Source: a virus. Taken from it: a stretch of 44,727 nt of DNA. The stretch covers positions 1 to 44,727 of IMG/VR virus record IMGVR_UViG_3300031977_002617; one strand, written 5' to 3'. The position numbers were made by a program, and so were the translations under genes. How positions within the stretch are numbered: the first letter of the stretch is position 1; the number at the start of each line of letters is the position of its first letter. Under the pieces are notes generated by a model. It was not told where the DNA came from. It worked only from the letters and a program-made list of their open reading frames with translations, and ran no database searches. Of the stretch, positions 4,998-44,727 are shown piece after piece.

Positions 4998-6005
4998 TTA
5001 TGCTTGTGTACCACCTGTAATAACACAAGATGCACCCGGATTCAATACACCCATACCATAAGAATAGTAAGAGGTTAATAAAGTATCCAACTGTTTTGGT
5101 AAGTAGTTAGACTCTGAAGTAATATCCATAAGCTTAAGAACACCTATACAATCTTCTGTAAATAGAAGTCCTTGAAACTTCTTATCAGTTCCTCCAACAT
5201 CTACACCAGTCTCTACACCGTTTGCTGTATCGTTAGCAATAGTATCCGTAACAGGTAAGTGGTTAGACCACATGATGTCGATACCTGCTACCTTAAGGAC
5301 TGTTCCTGAGTCAATCCCTCCATTACCTGATGTATAATCACCATTAACAGCCTTTTGAGACTGTACGAGGTAGTTATAGTTACGAGGAGTAGTAACAAAG
5401 TACTTAGTTCCTGAGACATTCTTCTCAGTCATCAATGTAGATGCTTCATATAGTGCTTCTAAAATAGCATCACCTTTAGCTTCTGCATCCGATCCTGAGT
5501 CAATAACATCATTATTTACCTCAGAACCATCAGGTTGCATAACAGCTCCACCGATAGTACCTGATGTTTGAGAAGCTAATAGAACTTGAGAGAATACATC
5601 TTTATCGATAGTCTCTGCTAATGCCTCACCTGCTTGTTTTCCTAACTCACTTCGGGTCTCAAAGTGGAGGATCTTTTCTTCAAACTTATTGATAGCTAAA
5701 GAATAATACTCTAAGGTATCAATATTAATGATACGTTCTTTTACAGGAATCTCGTTCGTAGAAATCTCAGTTCCGGGTGTGTGTGTACGGACAACATCAG
5801 AGTTATCTAACGATCTTGCAATAACAGGAAAAGGATAAGAAGAACCTGATTCAATAGTCTTAACCTTAACCATACCTAGTCCCATGTTCTTACGATCAAA
5901 GGCTGTTAATACTAACCCTGAGTAGATCTCTAGGGCATTATCCATATCTGTAGGTACACCTCGTGTACCTGAGTTATTACCAATATTTACTGGGCTAATT
6001 GCCAT
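4998..6005 (-). CDS. Major capsid protein (T7 gp10-like)
   Basis: The protein has 335 residues, against 345 for T7 gp10A. It starts MAISPVNIGNN and ends in LNPGASCVITGG, and the body shows the HK97-fold pattern of T7-like capsids: an N-arm, a KMLDKYPF-like central region, and a Gly-rich C-terminus. It builds the icosahedral shell around the scaffold. It sits between the scaffold gene and tail tube A, with stable hairpins on both sides (6140-6191 upstream, 4972-4995 downstream). That is consistent with an mRNA segment set apart for high expression, since no phage promoter lies directly in front of it. Confidence 0.95.
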   Translation of the reverse strand: MAISPVNIGNNSGTRGVPTDMDNALEIYSGLVLTAFDRKNMGLGMVKVKTIESGSSYPFPVIARSLDNSDVVRTHTPGTEISTNEIPVKERIINIDTLEYYSLAINKFEEKILHFETRSELGKQAGEALAETIDKDVFSQVLLASQTSGTIGGAVMQPDGSEVNNDVIDSGSDAEAKGDAILEALYEASTLMTEKNVSGTKYFVTTPRNYNYLVQSQKAVNGDYTSGNGGIDSGTVLKVAGIDIMWSNHLPVTDTIANDTANGVETGVDVGGTDKKFQGLLFTEDCIGVLKLMDITSESNYLPKQLDTLLTSYYSYGMGVLNPGASCVITGGTQA

Positions 6006-26551: not shown

Positions 26552-27292
26552 TTATCCTTCAATATTAGCTCCTTCAATATTAGCTTCTACAATATTAGCT
26601 CCTTCGAGATTAGCCCATCTAAGATCAGCTCCTTCGAGATTAGTCCATTTAAGATTAGCTTCTTCGAGATCAGCTCTTATGAGATTAGCTCCTGAAAGAT
26701 TAGCTTCTTCGAGATTAGCCCATCTAAGATTAGCTCTTCTAAGATTAGCCCATTTAAGATTAGCTTCTTCGAGATTAGCCCATTTAAGATTAGCCCATTT
26801 AAGATTAGCTTCTTCGAGATCAGCTCTTATGAGATTAGCTCCTGAAAGATTAGCTTCTTCAAGAGTAGCTCCTTCGAGATCAGCTCCTTCGAGATTAGCT
26901 CTTCTAAGATTAGCTCCGTAAAGATCAGCTCCTTCGAGATTAGCCCATTTAAGATTAGCTTCTTCGAGAGCAGCTCCTTTAAGTTTAGCCCATTTAAGAT
27001 TAGCTCTTCTAAGATCAGCTCCTTCGAGATTAGCTCTTCTAAGATCAGCTCCTTTAAGATTAGCCCATTTAAGATTAGCTCTTCTAAGATCAGCTCCTTC
27101 GAGATTAGCTCTTCTAAGATCAGCTCCTTTAAGATTAGCTTCTTCGAGATCAGCTCCTTTAAGATTAGCTTCTTCGAGATCAGCTCCTTTAAGACTTATC
27201 CTATTTTTTACGCAATACTCAACTATTTCTTTAACACTGTTAAATTGTCCCTCGTGAATTATAGTCCTGCTTATCCTTGTATATAGCTTCAT
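26552..27292 (-). CDS. Pentapeptide-repeat protein
   Basis: 246 residues from ATG 27290-27292, six bases after GGAGG (an upstream in-frame ATG at 27310 has no good site). Residues 1-35 form a lead domain; the rest is about 40 repeats of Ala-(Asp/Asn)-Leu-x-x in long uninterrupted blocks, predicting a right-handed quadrilateral beta-helix. Some relatives (Qnr, MfpA) mimic DNA and bind gyrase; others have unknown roles. The 15-base DNA units are nearly identical, suggesting recent expansion and possible length variation. Confidence 0.9.
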   Translation of the reverse strand: MKLYTRISRTIIHEGQFNSVKEIVEYCVKNRISLKGADLEEANLKGADLEEANLKGADLRRANLEGADLRRANLKWANLKGADLRRANLEGADLRRANLKWAKLKGAALEEANLKWANLEGADLYGANLRRANLEGADLEGATLEEANLSGANLIRADLEEANLKWANLKWANLEEANLKWANLRRANLRWANLEEANLSGANLIRADLEEANLKWTNLEGADLRWANLEGANIVEANIEGANIEG

Positions 27293-27293
27293 C

Positions 27294-27464
27294 TTAATCC
27301 TCCTCTTCATAATCTAAATCATAATCCCTACTTACATCCTCTTCTATGTCATCTAGGTATATACAATCTATTCCTTCTGTTTTTCTATAACAGTCAGTAT
27401 ATCCTGAATTTTCAAGATCGACTAAGCAATCTGCATAATCCTGTATATCTTGTTCTAAACTCAT
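27294..27464 (-). CDS. Small acidic protein derived from the 599-residue gene's 3' end (56 residues)
   Basis: ATG at 27462-27464, right behind the stop of the 599-residue gene and its GGAGG. The last 24 residues (DCIYLDDIEEDVSRDYD then LDYEEED) match the end of the neighbour (DYIYLEDIMEYVSSDYE ... LDYEVEED) except that about 27 residues are missing. The DNA is similar too: a 51-base stretch has about 7 differences by eye. It looks like a tandem duplication with an internal deletion. Function unknown. Confidence 0.7.
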   Translation of the reverse strand: MSLEQDIQDYADCLVDLENSGYTDCYRKTEGIDCIYLDDIEEDVSRDYDLDYEEED

Positions 27465-27465
27465 C

Positions 27466-29265
27466 TTAATCCTCCTCAACTTCATAATCTAAACTATAAC
27501 ATCCATCATCTAAGCACTGATATTCTCCTCCATCCTTACTCACATAATAATACTTATCTTCAAGGTATACATATTCATAATCACTACTTACATACTCCAT
27601 TATGTCCTCTAGGTATATATAATCTCTTACTTCTTCTGTATACTCCCTATCAATATAGTATTCTTTATCAAAAATAAATATGGCATCCTCTTCAGGAATA
27701 TACCAACCATTTATTTCACAATTGTAAACTTCGTCAGCTCTTATAAAATCCTCTGTGTCTCTAATATATAGGTAGTCATCAATATCTCCGAAACTATAAT
27801 TCCCATAGCTATCATAGCCTAATATATATAAATTTTCATTGTTTTTCAGATACTCTTCACTAAAAAGGTACCCACCTCCCTCAGCTTCCTCTATAGGCTG
27901 AGAATACTCTCTACTGAAGTAAGCTCCTTCCCCTTCACAAAAATAATATTCATCTCTATTTTCAATACAATATTCACATATTCTTTCCGATTCTCTATTA
28001 TGAGATAGAACATAATATAATTCTCCTTCACTATAGGAACCTCCACAACACTCACATGACATATTAGATAATCTATGTGCTGATAACTCACCTATGTCAT
28101 CTCCTTCAAGATTAATAGGGGTAAATACCTTAGAGTACATATCATATTTAATCCTCATAGCACCAGATAGATCCTCTTTTTCAATAAAGAACGTACTATC
28201 TTTAACTCTAGCTACTTTATAGCTATCAAAATAATTAAAATCTGAACTTGAAGAGTTCATAACACTTACTTTAAACGCTTTAGGGCTTATCCCTAGTTTA
28301 TTATATAAGGACTTTCTAAGATCCTTATTATAACCACATTCCCCCCCTTCATAATATGAACCACCATTAAATATTAATATATCTTCAGGAGTATATTTGG
28401 ATAAATACTTAAGTCCTAAAAAAGATCTAGCTACTTTATTCCCACTATCATCCAATATGTAGGTTATAAGAAGGTCTTCACTCCTAGCAAAAGAGTTAGT
28501 ACATAAGTGGTACTCTCCTCCGAACCTAAAACAACTACGCCAACCTGTGGTATTCTCACTAGCTGTTATGAAGTCATAAGGATCTATTGATACTACTACA
28601 GGTACTTTTTCTTTAAGCTCTACCTTCTCTATACCAGATACCATAGAATCTATAAGGCCTTTAGGTATCTCAATATCATAAAGATTCTTTAAGATTGTAG
28701 GTAGTAGCTTGGTAATAGTATATCTAAACTTTAAAACTTTAGTCTTTTTTTCATTATCTACATCAGATTCTTTAATAATTCCTCTATCAACTAGGTCTGT
28801 TAGGTCTTTATGAGACACTAGATAAGCCTTTAGTTTATTTTGTGAATCTACGTAAAATCTAATCTCAAATTTAAAACCATAATTTAAAGAAGAGCTTGTC
28901 TCAATATAAAGAGTATCATTTCCTCCACCTGCTTCACTAAGTGTCCCATTATATCTTGTTTGAATATATAAACTTGAAGTTACTAATGGCATGTTTTTGA
29001 GATATACTATCGGTGTTAAAAAAGGACGTATGTTGTCATATATATCCCTTACTATATCGTCTATATCTCTAATTCTATCTATATAAATAGTATTCTTAAT
29101 CTTACCTTCTAACAACCAATCATGTTCTTTTAATTTCTTATTTATCAGATCATAATCACATACTTGACGTAAGAAACTATTACTCGTGGTGTGGTATTGA
29201 TTATAATAAAAAGTCTTTATTTTTTCTCTACTATCTTCCAATAGATTATGTAATTCCTTATTCAT
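27466..29265 (-). CDS. Large unknown early phage protein with zinc-ribbon-like Cys motif (599 residues)
   Basis: Three parts are visible. Residues 1-215: helical, charged. Residues 225-330: an SIDPYDFITASENTTGW-R-SC segment resembling a 'Ser-x-x-Pro-x-Asp-Phe ... Trp-x-Ser-Cys' motif I recall from large uncharacterised phage proteins. Residues 400-435: Cys-x-Cys-Cys and Cys-x-x-Cys pairs (MSCECCGG, ICEYCIE), a probable zinc site. The last 170 residues are Tyr- and Asp/Glu-rich with repeated 'YIxxED' units. It overlaps the 233-residue gene by 8 bases. Early expression and acidity suggest host takeover or counter-defence; that is inference. Confidence 0.8.
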   Translation of the reverse strand: MNKELHNLLEDSREKIKTFYYNQYHTTSNSFLRQVCDYDLINKKLKEHDWLLEGKIKNTIYIDRIRDIDDIVRDIYDNIRPFLTPIVYLKNMPLVTSSLYIQTRYNGTLSEAGGGNDTLYIETSSSLNYGFKFEIRFYVDSQNKLKAYLVSHKDLTDLVDRGIIKESDVDNEKKTKVLKFRYTITKLLPTILKNLYDIEIPKGLIDSMVSGIEKVELKEKVPVVVSIDPYDFITASENTTGWRSCFRFGGEYHLCTNSFARSEDLLITYILDDSGNKVARSFLGLKYLSKYTPEDILIFNGGSYYEGGECGYNKDLRKSLYNKLGISPKAFKVSVMNSSSSDFNYFDSYKVARVKDSTFFIEKEDLSGAMRIKYDMYSKVFTPINLEGDDIGELSAHRLSNMSCECCGGSYSEGELYYVLSHNRESERICEYCIENRDEYYFCEGEGAYFSREYSQPIEEAEGGGYLFSEEYLKNNENLYILGYDSYGNYSFGDIDDYLYIRDTEDFIRADEVYNCEINGWYIPEEDAIFIFDKEYYIDREYTEEVRDYIYLEDIMEYVSSDYEYVYLEDKYYYVSKDGGEYQCLDDGCYSLDYEVEED

Positions 29266-29959
29266 TTTCCTCTCCTAATATATCGAATAATAATGCTCGT
29301 TTTAAAAAATTATATTTATCATCTGGGAAGTGTATTCGGATAGCATAAGGTATAAGTTTATCTACATTAGAACTATCCCAAAATAACCCTCTTATTTCTC
29401 TATCCTCAACAAATGTATTTTCAAGATTAAAAATAGATTTCCTATACAGATAAAAAGGCGATAAATTGGTAGATGGTAGTAGTTGGCTTGTTCTTATTAA
29501 CTCTATATATTTAGAGTATAATAAATCTTCAGTAAATCCAACTAATTCCTCAACTGTAGGTATAATATCATAATCCTGCAGATCTTCTTTAGGGATAGAG
29601 ATAATATCTGGTAGATATTTTCGATATTTATATGTACATACGAAGTCTGCTATATAAACCAAATAATATGATAGAATGCAATATTTTTCATCAACACTAA
29701 GCCAATAATTATGGGTTTTTCTACGTGAAGGTATAAACTCTTCTAACTCTATATGAGGTATAGGATCTTCTTTAATGATGTTATTTATTATCTCTATAAT
29801 TAGATTATTAAGCCCAACAGTATCTCTTTTTCTGATAAGTATATCAGTAAATTTGTAATTATCATATTCTATAAATAAATCTCTTATTTCCTTAAATAAA
29901 TCCTCAACGGTGATATTATCTATTTTTTCTCTTACCTCTTCTTCCATCTGTTCCAACAT
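29258..29959 (-). CDS. Unknown early protein (233 residues)
   Basis: First gene behind the phage promoter at 30044-30066, with an AAAGGA ribosome site. Helical and acidic-aromatic, no motif recognised. It overlaps the 599-residue gene by 8 bases, so the two are probably made together and may interact. Confidence 0.8.
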   Translation of the reverse strand: MLEQMEEEVREKIDNITVEDLFKEIRDLFIEYDNYKFTDILIRKRDTVGLNNLIIEIINNIIKEDPIPHIELEEFIPSRRKTHNYWLSVDEKYCILSYYLVYIADFVCTYKYRKYLPDIISIPKEDLQDYDIIPTVEELVGFTEDLLYSKYIELIRTSQLLPSTNLSPFYLYRKSIFNLENTFVEDREIRGLFWDSSNVDKLIPYAIRIHFPDDKYNFLKRALLFDILGEENE

Positions 29960-41330: not shown

Positions 41331-41759
41331 TTAAAAGCTAAATATAGACGTAATACGATCTCTAAATTCTCCTACATCAAAATTAGGACATCTTTTATTA
41401 CTTACTTCATAATGTCCTATTACTCTATCTATAGGGATGCAAAATTTAAACATAAGCTGTTTAACAAGCTTTTCAAGGCTTTTAAACTGGTTCTCTGTGA
41501 AAGATTCTTTACCTATAAGACATATCCCTATATAGTCATTATATCTTCTAGCATGGGCACCTAAGTTATCTATATCTCTGCCTCTTTCAATAGTACCATC
41601 CATACAAGATAAGTAATTGGTTTTCTCTACTTGTCCATTGCATATAACAAAGTGGTATCCTATAGAGTCCCACCCTCTACCCAAGTGCCACTTATTTATC
41701 TCTATAGATGAACCAAAAAGTGAATCACTACAGTGGATTATAATTCCATCAGGTCTCAT
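41331..41759 (-). CDS. N-acetylmuramoyl-L-alanine amidase (T7 lysozyme-like endolysin)
   Basis: 142 residues, against 151 for T7 gp3.5. Amidase_2 zinc ligands are His9 (IIIHCS), His in GHYEVS and Cys in RCPNFD, and the IGYHFVI strand is present; these match T7 His17, His122 and Cys130. It cleaves the peptide from murein. Unlike T7, where the gene sits in the replication region and the protein also inhibits RNAP, here it lies with the holin. The start overlaps the holin stop by 4 bases. Confidence 0.95.
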   Translation of the reverse strand: MRPDGIIIHCSDSLFGSSIEINKWHLGRGWDSIGYHFVICNGQVEKTNYLSCMDGTIERGRDIDNLGAHARRYNDYIGICLIGKESFTENQFKSLEKLVKQLMFKFCIPIDRVIGHYEVSNKRCPNFDVGEFRDRITSIFSF

Positions 41760-42148
41760 TTCTTCTCCTTAAAACTATTTATAACACCGCCAGTAAAATA
41801 CCAAGCAACTATAGCTGACATTATCCAACCTAAACTAAAAACTGATATAAGATCTAAATAGCTTTTTAGTAATTGATCATTACTAAAACATAATAGCCCT
41901 ACCCCTATCCAGAAAGCTAATATAAAATTAATAGTAAAGGTTATAGCAATCACCCTCTGTGCAATCTTGAAAGGCTCATAAAGAGGTAAAAGCTTCATCT
42001 TAGCCTCTACCTTAAAGGTCTCTATCTTTATTTTATCCTCAGCTTTCTCTTCATCTGTATAGAAAGCTTTATCAAGTCCATTATAAATACCATCTACAAC
42101 TTTAGTAGCATTGTTAGGACTAAACAAATTTGTTAATGTTTTAAACAT
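41756..42148 (-). CDS. Holin-like membrane protein (3TM/GTA-type)
   Basis: 130 residues. After a soluble lead with FYTDEEKAEDK comes the FKIAQRVIAI motif and two long hydrophobic segments (about residues 65-85 and 97-118), ending in a basic tail. This matches the phage holin family with an Ala-Gln-Arg motif before the first helix. It would open the inner membrane to let the amidase, encoded next, reach the wall. Confidence 0.85.
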   Translation of the reverse strand: MFKTLTNLFSPNNATKVVDGIYNGLDKAFYTDEEKAEDKIKIETFKVEAKMKLLPLYEPFKIAQRVIAITFTINFILAFWIGVGLLCFSNDQLLKSYLDLISVFSLGWIMSAIVAWYFTGGVINSFKEKK

Positions 42149-42158
42149 ACCTTCTCCT

Positions 42159-42623
42159 TTAAGCTAATAGTCTCCTCACTTCTTCAAAATCTCTTCTCAT
42201 GTGGCTCATAGAGTTACATATAACTTCTTTAGGATCTTCTTTAATAAGTTCTTTAATAGCAGGTTCAATACTGTTAAAGGTTAAGGGTTTATCTAGCATT
42301 TTAATTCTAGGATAACAAGACTCTATAGTCTCCTTAACTTCTTTAAAAGCACTAACTACTAAAATAGGAATAGGCTTTCCTTTACGAGTAAGTCCTTTCA
42401 TCCTTATAAATTCTATTAGATGTCCTCCATCTTTCTTCTGCATGTGCCAATCTGTTATAACCATCTCCACATCCCTATTAGTATCTAGGTATATGCAGGT
42501 ATCTACCACATTTGAAAAAGTAACTATTTCTATAGCTATATATTCTAGTATTGATGATAGTAGTTTTAATTGTACTTCATCATCTTCTACTATAACTAAT
42601 TTATTTAGAATCTTATTTTTCAT
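42159..42623 (-). CDS. Stand-alone response-regulator receiver protein (CheY-like)
   Basis: 154 residues. Receiver-domain residues are all present: acidic pair Asp14/Asp15 (VIVEDDE), phosphoacceptor Asp58 (VITDWHM), switch Ser91 (VVSAF) and Lys112 (LDKPL). A helical 25-residue tail follows; there is no DNA-binding or enzyme domain. It should accept phosphate from a host histidine kinase or phosphotransfer protein, or decoy it. It lies between a coiled-coil membrane protein and the holin, an odd place for a signalling protein. Its weak ribosome site overlaps the previous stop. Confidence 0.88.
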   Translation of the reverse strand: MKNKILNKLVIVEDDEVQLKLLSSILEYIAIEIVTFSNVVDTCIYLDTNRDVEMVITDWHMQKKDGGHLIEFIRMKGLTRKGKPIPILVVSAFKEVKETIESCYPRIKMLDKPLTFNSIEPAIKELIKEDPKEVICNSMSHMRRDFEEVRRLLA

Positions 42624-42624
42624 C

Positions 42625-43092
42625 TTAAGATCCTATAAATATACGTGTAACAACATAAAGAACTATAGGGGTTGTTATTGATAAGATAAACCATCTAAGT
42701 ATTCTTTTAGATATAATCCCTTCAACACTTTCCCAATGTTCTTTAGCATCTTCTTTTCTTTTCTTTTGATAAGTATCTGAATTAACTACAAGGCTTACTA
42801 TAGAAGTTGAAGTAATAGGATCACTAAGTAAAGACCTAACATCATTAAGTACAATATTTTTATGATTAGTACTATCTGTGTGTTTAGTTATAGTCTCTAA
42901 AGCTATCTGAAGAGTTTCTTGTCTAAACTCAATAGACCCTAGCACTGATAGAATCTTATCATTCTTATCCTGCTTATCTTTAAAACTATCTTTTAGATCC
43001 TCAACATTCTTAGTTAGCCCTTCTAGTTTTCCTTCAAGTCTAATAAGACCTTCAGTATTCTTATCAATAGCTTCTCTATTATGATCCATCAT
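42625..43092 (-). CDS. Coiled-coil protein with C-terminal membrane anchor
   Basis: 155 residues. Residues 5-55 form a coiled coil (LIRLEGKLEGLTKNVEDLKD), the middle is charged, and one hydrophobic helix lies at the C-terminus (about 132-152). This resembles XhlA-type or spanin-like lysis proteins only in outline. Overlaps the previous gene by 4 bases. Confidence 0.6.
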   Translation of the reverse strand: MMDHNREAIDKNTEGLIRLEGKLEGLTKNVEDLKDSFKDKQDKNDKILSVLGSIEFRQETLQIALETITKHTDSTNHKNIVLNDVRSLLSDPITSTSIVSLVVNSDTYQKKRKEDAKEHWESVEGIISKRILRWFILSITTPIVLYVVTRIFIGS

Positions 43093-43343
43093 TTATTATT
43101 CCAAACTTTAATTGAATTAGAAAACACCCATAAAAACCAGTAGTTAAATACTATACCTACAAGCAATCCTACTAAGGCTAATAAGTGTTCTTGTAGGCTA
43201 GATCCATTACCTAGTAGTAAAGGTAAGGTTATTATTAGGTACTTAAATACTCCGAAAATTATTGCTAGTACCCACATTAGACTCTTATTATCTATAGGGT
43301 CTTTAGAGTGTACGCTATGATAAAGCCTTCGGACGTATACCAT
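43089..43343 (-). CDS. Small membrane protein (84 residues)
   Basis: Two or three hydrophobic segments (about residues 24-44 and 52-76) with a basic N-terminus. It starts inside the end of the papain-like gene and ends inside the start of the coiled-coil gene, so all three are co-translated. It could be an antiholin or an accessory lysis factor. Confidence 0.65.
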   Translation of the reverse strand: MVYVRRLYHSVHSKDPIDNKSLMWVLAIIFGVFKYLIITLPLLLGNGSSLQEHLLALVGLLVGIVFNYWFLWVFSNSIKVWNNK

Positions 43344-43794
43344 GTCGACTCCTATCAGATAGTAAGGAATAAGCTAAGTTGACCCCATGCATTTGAGTCT
43401 TACTATAACCTAAAGCATTCATTACCCACTCACTACAAAACCATTTATTAGGACAGTGCCTATTTATAGGGAACATTTGAGATAATAGAATACCTAATAT
43501 ATCATATTTATGTCCTTTAGTCCTCAAATAGAATTCTGTTATATACTCTAAATCCACATCCCTAACTTCTACCACATCATACTCATACCTATTAAGTCTA
43601 ACTACCTCAGTTCTTCTTACCCCCTTATCCAATATAGCTGAGTAAGCATAGTTATCTATTACAAGCTCCACATGGGAATATTTACCTCTTAAGGTTATTA
43701 ACCAATTCATAAGAGCCTTGCCTAAAGATAACTTCTTAAAGTAGTTTTTAGCTGTAGGTTTATGTCTAAACCATACTTCTACACTGTTATACAT
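43315..43794 (-). CDS. Permuted papain-like (NlpC/P60-type) cysteine hydrolase
   Basis: 159 residues. The likely catalytic His is in KYSHVELVID (about residue 40) and the Cys in KWFCSEWVM (about residue 125), the permuted order of YiiX-like NlpC/P60 proteins. Such proteins are common in the tail and lysis regions of marine phages. It could cut murein peptides during entry or lysis, or act on lipids. Its start overlaps the 190-residue gene by 8 bases. Confidence 0.7.
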   Translation of the reverse strand: MYNSVEVWFRHKPTAKNYFKKLSLGKALMNWLITLRGKYSHVELVIDNYAYSAILDKGVRRTEVVRLNRYEYDVVEVRDVDLEYITEFYLRTKGHKYDILGILLSQMFPINRHCPNKWFCSEWVMNALGYSKTQMHGVNLAYSLLSDRSRHGIRPKALS

Positions 43795-44359: not shown

Positions 44360-44727
44360 TAATTTTTACCTCCAAATACAATAATAGATATTGTTGACCC
44401 ATTATAGGGTGATGTTGCATACATATTACCAACTCTGAATTTCTCAGTGGTTCTAAACTCTGTTATTTCTCCTATATAACGTATACCTGTTTCTCCGCTT
44501 AGGGTTGATCCGGTAGACCCAATAGAGTAAAAGGTGTTATCCATAGACTCTTCAAAAAAGATTTCGTACCTACCGGTAGATACTCTTGATACACTATTAA
44601 CATTAAAGCTACCTCTGATTGTCGGAGGAGTAGTTGTTCCATCAAAATTAACCCATGCAGTAGCGCTATTCTTTGGTACACTTCCTTGATTAGTTACAAG
44701 AGCTTTATTAGAGTCTAATTTAAAACT
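44359..44727 (-). CDS. Second tail-fibre protein, C-terminal part (continues from base 1)
   Basis: The same gene as 1-659; the frame enters from the overlap (44582-44727 repeats 1-146) and ends at the stop at 44359. The last 100 residues contain the Trp-Val-Asn-Phe-Asp-Gly motif, a Gly-Arg-Tyr-Glu-Ile-Phe-Phe-Glu-Glu strand and a Gly-Ser-rich end. At the mismatch base 44637 this copy encodes Thr where the copy at base 56 encodes Ala. Confidence 0.85.
   Translation of the reverse strand, partial: SFKLDSNKALVTNQGSVPKNSATAWVNFDGTTTPPTIRGSFNVNSVSRVSTGRYEIFFEESMDNTFYSIGSTGSTLSGETGIRYIGEITEFRTTEKFRVGNMYATSPYNGSTISIIVFGGKN
44582..44727. repeat. Right copy of the 146-base terminal overlap
   Basis: Repeats bases 1-146 with one difference (44637). 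See the left copy. Confidence 0.9.

Follow-up and report, generated by a model that had tools for sequence, protein, structure and literature searches.

A stand-alone response-regulator receiver beside a membrane coiled-coil protein in the lysis block of a T7-like phage

In strictly lytic phages the timing of lysis is usually ascribed to holin accumulation and membrane potential alone. The T7-like genome described here carries, among its lysis genes, a response-regulator receiver that lacks an output domain, and the question is what such a protein could do there. The first-pass annotation of this DNA had offered three ideas, namely that the receiver drains phosphate from a host two-component system, binds a host kinase, or gates the time of lysis.

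The genome and its lysis block

The window, meaning the whole stretch of DNA analysed, is an entire IMG/VR record of 44,727 b. Its ends (1-146 and 44582-44727) form a 146-b direct repeat with one mismatch, located inside a tail-fibre gene, indicating that the contig is a near-complete genome that was cut within this gene. The genome is T7-like, as had been recognized earlier, and encodes a single-subunit RNA polymerase, a primase-helicase, a DNA polymerase, RNR, ThyX, a portal, a capsid protein, gp14/gp16-like proteins and TerL. Judged by the terminase, the nearest named relative is Lauvirus lau218 (58%). Two ORFs in the early region, of 599 aa (27466-29265) and 233 aa (29258-29959), have no PHROG match, and a 252-aa ORF at 26552-27310 is matched by phrog_7713 in seven stretches, indicating an internally repetitive protein.

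The lysis block is located after the tail-fibre genes and starts with a 190-aa ORF, which is followed in the order of transcription by these genes:

43315-43794, minus strand: permuted papain-like (C92-type) protein, 159 aa, phrog_1128 (E 1e-23)
43089-43343, minus strand: small protein with two transmembrane (TM) segments, 84 aa, resembling a holin only in size and topology
42625-43092, minus strand: membrane coiled-coil partner, 155 aa, with an N-terminal coil and a C-terminal TM segment at about 135-153
42159-42623, minus strand: stand-alone receiver (REC), 154 aa, with a C-terminal helical tail (Pfam, CheY alignment, AF2, Foldseek)
41756-42148, minus strand: holin-like protein, 130 aa, two TM segments, phrog_9646
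41331-41759, minus strand: endolysin, N-acetylmuramoyl-L-alanine amidase (Amidase_2), PF01510 (E 4.6e-13) and phrog_822, lysis (E 2.7e-32)

The stop codon of the coil gene and the start codon of the receiver gene are 1 b apart (TAAGATG), and the holin-like gene is found 10 b from the receiver gene with an AAGGAG ribosome site that spans the receiver stop. The placement between a coiled-coil membrane protein and a holin, as proposed in the first-pass annotation, is thus correct with the holin read as a holin-like ORF, and the suggested late expression is supported by the location of the receiver on the late strand. No promoter or terminator signals above chance and no Rfam matches were found in the block.

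The holin-like protein is related to gp46 of Roseobacter phage CRP-143 and to Vibrio phage proteins, and the papain-like protein shows 28% identity to gp28 of Alteromonas phage V22 in a pairwise comparison (E 3e-5). The family phrog_1128 is labelled enoyl-CoA hydratase-like, and V22 gp28, a permuted papain-like C92 protein, matches it as well; from these sequences the label is probably wrong.

The coil of the partner protein is predicted to be cytoplasmic. Its predicted structure is all-helical with a pLDDT of 67 and a pTM of 0.28, a low confidence for which the model was left unused. With its one-TM coiled-coil protein, holin-like protein and amidase the block is built like the XhlA-XhlB-XlyA module of PBSX, in which, to our knowledge, no receiver has been reported. 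The likeness is one of architecture only, as the partner has no sequence match to PBSX XhlA or to the XhlA family (PF10779), nor to the partner protein of any other phage described below.

A catalytically complete receiver

Residues 10-120 of the receiver ORF match PF00072 (Response_reg) with 43 bits (E 5.9e-11), above the curated cut-off of 30.2 bits. No other Pfam match was found, and the 34 residues C-terminal of the match contain no DNA-binding domain of the PhoB/OmpR type and no other output domain. The AF2 model (mean pLDDT 82.5) shows the (beta-alpha)5 receiver fold and a C-terminal helix at 131-153, in a poorly resolved tail with pLDDT below 70. Foldseek gave 400 matches in the PDB at E <= 1e-3, the top ones all being receivers (RssB, PhoP, DivK, CheY), and the assignment as a stand-alone receiver is confirmed. 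In BFVD the best tailed-phage match is V22 gp30 over 145 aligned columns, a match that may be favoured by the presence of the V22 sequence in the alignment behind the model.

When aligned to E. coli CheY, D12/D13 correspond to Glu13/Asp14, D57 to Asp58, T87 to Ser91, K109 to Lys112 and P110 to Pro113. Three of the active-site positions named earlier (Asp58, Ser91 and Lys112) are therefore right, whereas the acidic pair given as Asp14/Asp15 was one residue off. CheY Pro61 is replaced by Gln62 and the switch aromatic Tyr106 by Met109; a proline and an aromatic residue at these positions are common in receiver domains, not universal. As read from the alignment, the receiver is catalytically complete and probably phosphorylatable, in line with the earlier view that it is active, yet non-canonical because of these two replacements, and Met109 may weaken canonical signalling.

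Single-domain regulators of the CheY, DivK and Spo0F type have the same fold, acidic pair, phospho-Asp, Ser/Thr and Lys, and also lack an output domain. The window receiver differs from them in its extra C-terminal helix, in the loss of the Pro61 and Tyr106 equivalents, and in its neighbours, which are not chemotaxis or phosphorelay genes. The cRec proteins of jumbo phages are likewise phage-borne, receiver-like and without a kinase, but they are divergent receivers tied to NAD+/ADP-ribose enzymes with no two-component link (PMC7824862), whereas the window encodes a classical receiver among lysis genes, with no NAD+/ADP-ribose processing genes beside it.

Close relatives of the receiver were found neither in phage records nor in IMG/VR (exact peptides), and a plasmid search gave one weak match and no close relative. 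A single known contig might point to a bacterial receiver mis-assembled into phage DNA, but the codon usage is ordinary for the genome (rank 23 of 37 window genes) and the GC content is also native, so the gene does not look foreign. The 1-b junction with the coil gene, the overlap of the receiver stop with the next ribosome site, and the fact that isolated phages repeat this gene order also speak against an artefact, and with native codon usage in such a tight operon we regard a chimera as extremely improbable.

Lysis cassettes of terminase relatives

No PF00072 match was found in 48 terminase-related records (47 from IMG/VR and Roseobacter phage CRP-143), many of which are fragments; the same search detects the window's own receiver. 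The lysis cassettes of these relatives have a coiled-coil/TM protein in the corresponding position but no receiver, as seen in L003, L030, L033 and CRP-143, indicating that the receiver is an addition to an older coil-bearing cassette. Since TM-coil proteins are common in lysis cassettes that lack a receiver, the adjacency of the two genes partly reflects how such cassettes are made up.

Receivers in Alteromonas phages

By searching with other receivers, stand-alone receivers were found in isolated Alteromonas phages that are T7-like, N4-like, myoviral or belong to two siphophage groups, each directly 3' of a small one-TM coiled-coil ORF. The rarity of receivers expected from the first-pass annotation is thus limited to the terminase relatives of the window phage, because in Alteromonas phages they recur. 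In the T7-like Foturvirus phages H4/4 and R8W the order is holin, TM-coil, receiver, two-TM-like ORF and terminases, and in the R9Y siphophages and their IMG/VR kin it is TM-coil, receiver and lysozyme. Phages PB15 and XX1924 have a coil-TM protein, the receiver, an M15 peptidase or endolysin-like ORF and a holin-like ORF, where the partner in PB15 is a member of the phage 'hemolysin' (XhlA) family (E 1.8e-16) and that of XX1924 is also of XhlA type. In the N4-like phages PT11-V19 and R22Y the TM-coil and receiver are followed by antisense holin-like and endolysin-like ORFs. The myovirus V22 and the schitovirus A5 have TM-coil, receiver, Rz-like spanin, two-TM ORF and endolysin, and in V22 a permuted papain-like protein is located upstream of the pair, as in the window.

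These receivers (H4/4 gp44, R8W gp48, R9Y, V22 gp30, A5 gp11, PB15, XX1924) are, like that of the window, stand-alone and mostly 147-154 aa long, keep the catalytic residues, and are encoded within or next to lysis genes, directly 3' of a one-TM coiled-coil ORF. The window differs in its partner, which has a C-terminal anchor and no sequence relationship to theirs.

A looser scan of IMG/VR yielded nothing but the T4-like contig L100, on which a CheY-like receiver of 123 aa (5004-5375) has no TM-coil neighbour; two terminase relatives of the window, L028 and L048, derive from the metagenome that also gave L100. Nothing was found when IMG/VR was scanned for PB15-type receivers. Matches in Komp_PAO1_1 and Bhz63 are complete response regulators that include an output domain and hence not stand-alone, and those in 'Bacteriophage sp.', 'Listeria phage LM' and similar entries are on unannotated, bacterial-looking contigs that were set aside without individual checks.

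Several of these genes have been published under other functions. V22 gp30 and A5 gp11 are described as CheY-like class II auxiliary genes in a host-recognition module, in which the function of V22 gp29, gp31 and gp32 is called unknown (PMC7289586, PMC10579305), and R8W g48 is described as PhoB (PMC8228385). From these descriptions, and from the position of the block downstream of tail-fibre genes in several phages, the receiver could be an auxiliary regulator of host chemotaxis or of the phosphate response. R8W g48 has no DNA-binding domain despite its name and is hence not a PhoB, and in the window the link to the tail fibres is one of gene order only. Furthermore, V22 gp31 is Rz-spanin-like (phrog_4297, E 7e-6), A5 gp14 is annotated as endolysin, and PB15 and R9Y have an M15 peptidase or a lysozyme next to the pair, which places the genes in a lysis setting and makes an auxiliary role quite improbable.

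The V22 region gp28-gp35 (L102:24959-28235), published within the host-recognition module, contains the papain-like protein, TM-coil, receiver, Rz-like spanin, two-TM ORF and an endolysin-like ORF, and by its predicted products looks like a lysis cassette. The annotations of MF278336 gp44, MW043865 gp48 and MN877442 gp30 as a DNA-binding response regulator (PhoB) or a hybrid sensor histidine kinase are wrong, all three being stand-alone receivers. In the non-subscription literature we found no description of a lysis setting or TM-coil pairing for these receivers.

Conservation of the pair and of the active site

A TM-coil ORF is located directly upstream of 12 of 13 non-redundant phage receivers, L100 being the exception, and of none of 20 bacterial stand-alone receivers taken from one genome scan. 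Fisher's test gives p 4e-8, a value that overstates the difference because of the relatedness among the phage receivers and because the bacterial ones were chosen by likeness to one of these.

Counts of Lys+Arg in the flanks of the TM segment place the coil in the cytoplasm in 13/13 partners, with the TM segment at either the N- or the C-terminus, and three Rz-like spanins used as controls gave a periplasmic coil, as expected. By net charge the topology of the PB15 and XX1924 partners is ambiguous, and the V22, A5 and L185 partners have weak TM segments. In sequence the partners make up at least three families between which no similarity could be detected, with the window partner on its own, indicating that the receiver follows a membrane-anchored cytoplasmic coil and not one protein family.

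The receivers are themselves diverse, and that of the window shows 18-26% identity to those of the Alteromonas phages. In the tree the 14 Alteromonas-type phage receivers cluster with a support of 80/85, and the window receiver is on a very long branch (4.46) with an AU p of 0.43 for joining this clade, which speaks neither for nor against its membership. A C-terminal tail shared between the window and phage receivers seemed promising by eye and was rejected, as it was not above shuffled tails (0.135).

The CheY alignment shows intact phosphorylation residues in all phage receivers examined except those of PT11-V19 and R22Y, so the loss of Asp58 or Lys112 in most homologues, named in advance as counter-evidence to an active receiver, was not seen. 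PT11-V19 (L092:3998-4450) and R22Y (L101:4001-4465) encode pseudo-receivers that have lost the phospho-Asp, Ser/Thr and Lys, with a shortened loop following beta3 and with the TM-coil partner kept. In this one lineage phosphorylation must be dispensable, since the pair remains. The receiver fold might then act as an adaptor that caps or assembles the membrane coil independently of phosphorylation, in the manner of an antiholin or chaperone, the active site being a leftover; the missing proline and switch aromatic in the window receiver would agree with this. However, the catalytic residues are kept in all other lineages at identities near 20-30%, a sign that phosphorylation is under selection in them, and we consider a purely structural adaptor unlikely.

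Catalytic residues without an output domain are also what a phosphate sink needs, and the receiver could drain or occupy a host histidine kinase and so silence a host response late in infection, for example to envelope stress, to phosphate starvation or in chemotaxis. A phage protein that binds histidine kinases is known, PIT4 of phage LSL4, which binds FleS, PilS and PA2882 (PMC10714779). A sink or decoy does nevertheless leave unexplained why the receiver is fixed beside a membrane coil and lysis genes across tail types, and why one lineage has kept the pair and lost phosphorylation, and host takeover fits poorly with the late placement. Neither of these earlier ideas alone explains the pairing, and we hold a sink or decoy to be rather unlikely. 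Lysis gating is favoured among the three, because the receiver pairs with a membrane coiled-coil protein in the lysis cassettes of several unrelated phages, and the first-pass interpretation is on the whole partly supported.

A possible switch for lysis timing

The anatomy of the receiver and coil arrangement is well supported. Its fixed pairing, its location in lysis cassettes, the topology of the coil and the conserved catalytic residues lead us to propose, at somewhat less than an even chance, that the receiver is one half of a two-protein switch for lysis control, the membrane coiled coil being the other. We infer physical contact between the two, phosphorylation in vivo and an effect on lysis. 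The receiver would be made late, its translation coupled to that of the gene immediately before it, which encodes an inner-membrane protein with a cytoplasmic coiled coil, of the accessory kind that accompanies holins in lysis cassettes (of XhlA type in PB15). In PBSX, lysis needs XhlA, XhlB and the endolysin together (PMC10630273, PMC5589764). A host histidine kinase or a small donor such as acetyl phosphate might supply the phosphoryl group, and in one of its two states the receiver would dock on the coil and advance or delay the triggering of the holin, whereby the signalling or energy state of the host could tune the time of lysis.

A wider reading is that the placing of a phosphorylatable receiver on a cytoplasmic membrane coil in the lysis cassette has happened repeatedly, in phages with several kinds of tail, with the host phosphorelay or acetyl phosphate setting the lysis time, and that the window phage, whose receiver and coil are both different, arrived there by convergence; this is conceivable, though we would sooner doubt it than adopt it. 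Since the pair is also found in Alteromonas phages that have been isolated and can be cultivated, the question is already open to experiment. If the proposed switch is real, several published CheY- and PhoB-like auxiliary genes become lysis-control genes, and through the receiver in the lysis cassette the two-component signalling or the metabolic state of the host would act on these phages directly. The recurrence of the pair in unrelated marine phages suggests that the moment of lysis may be tied to the signalling state of the host.
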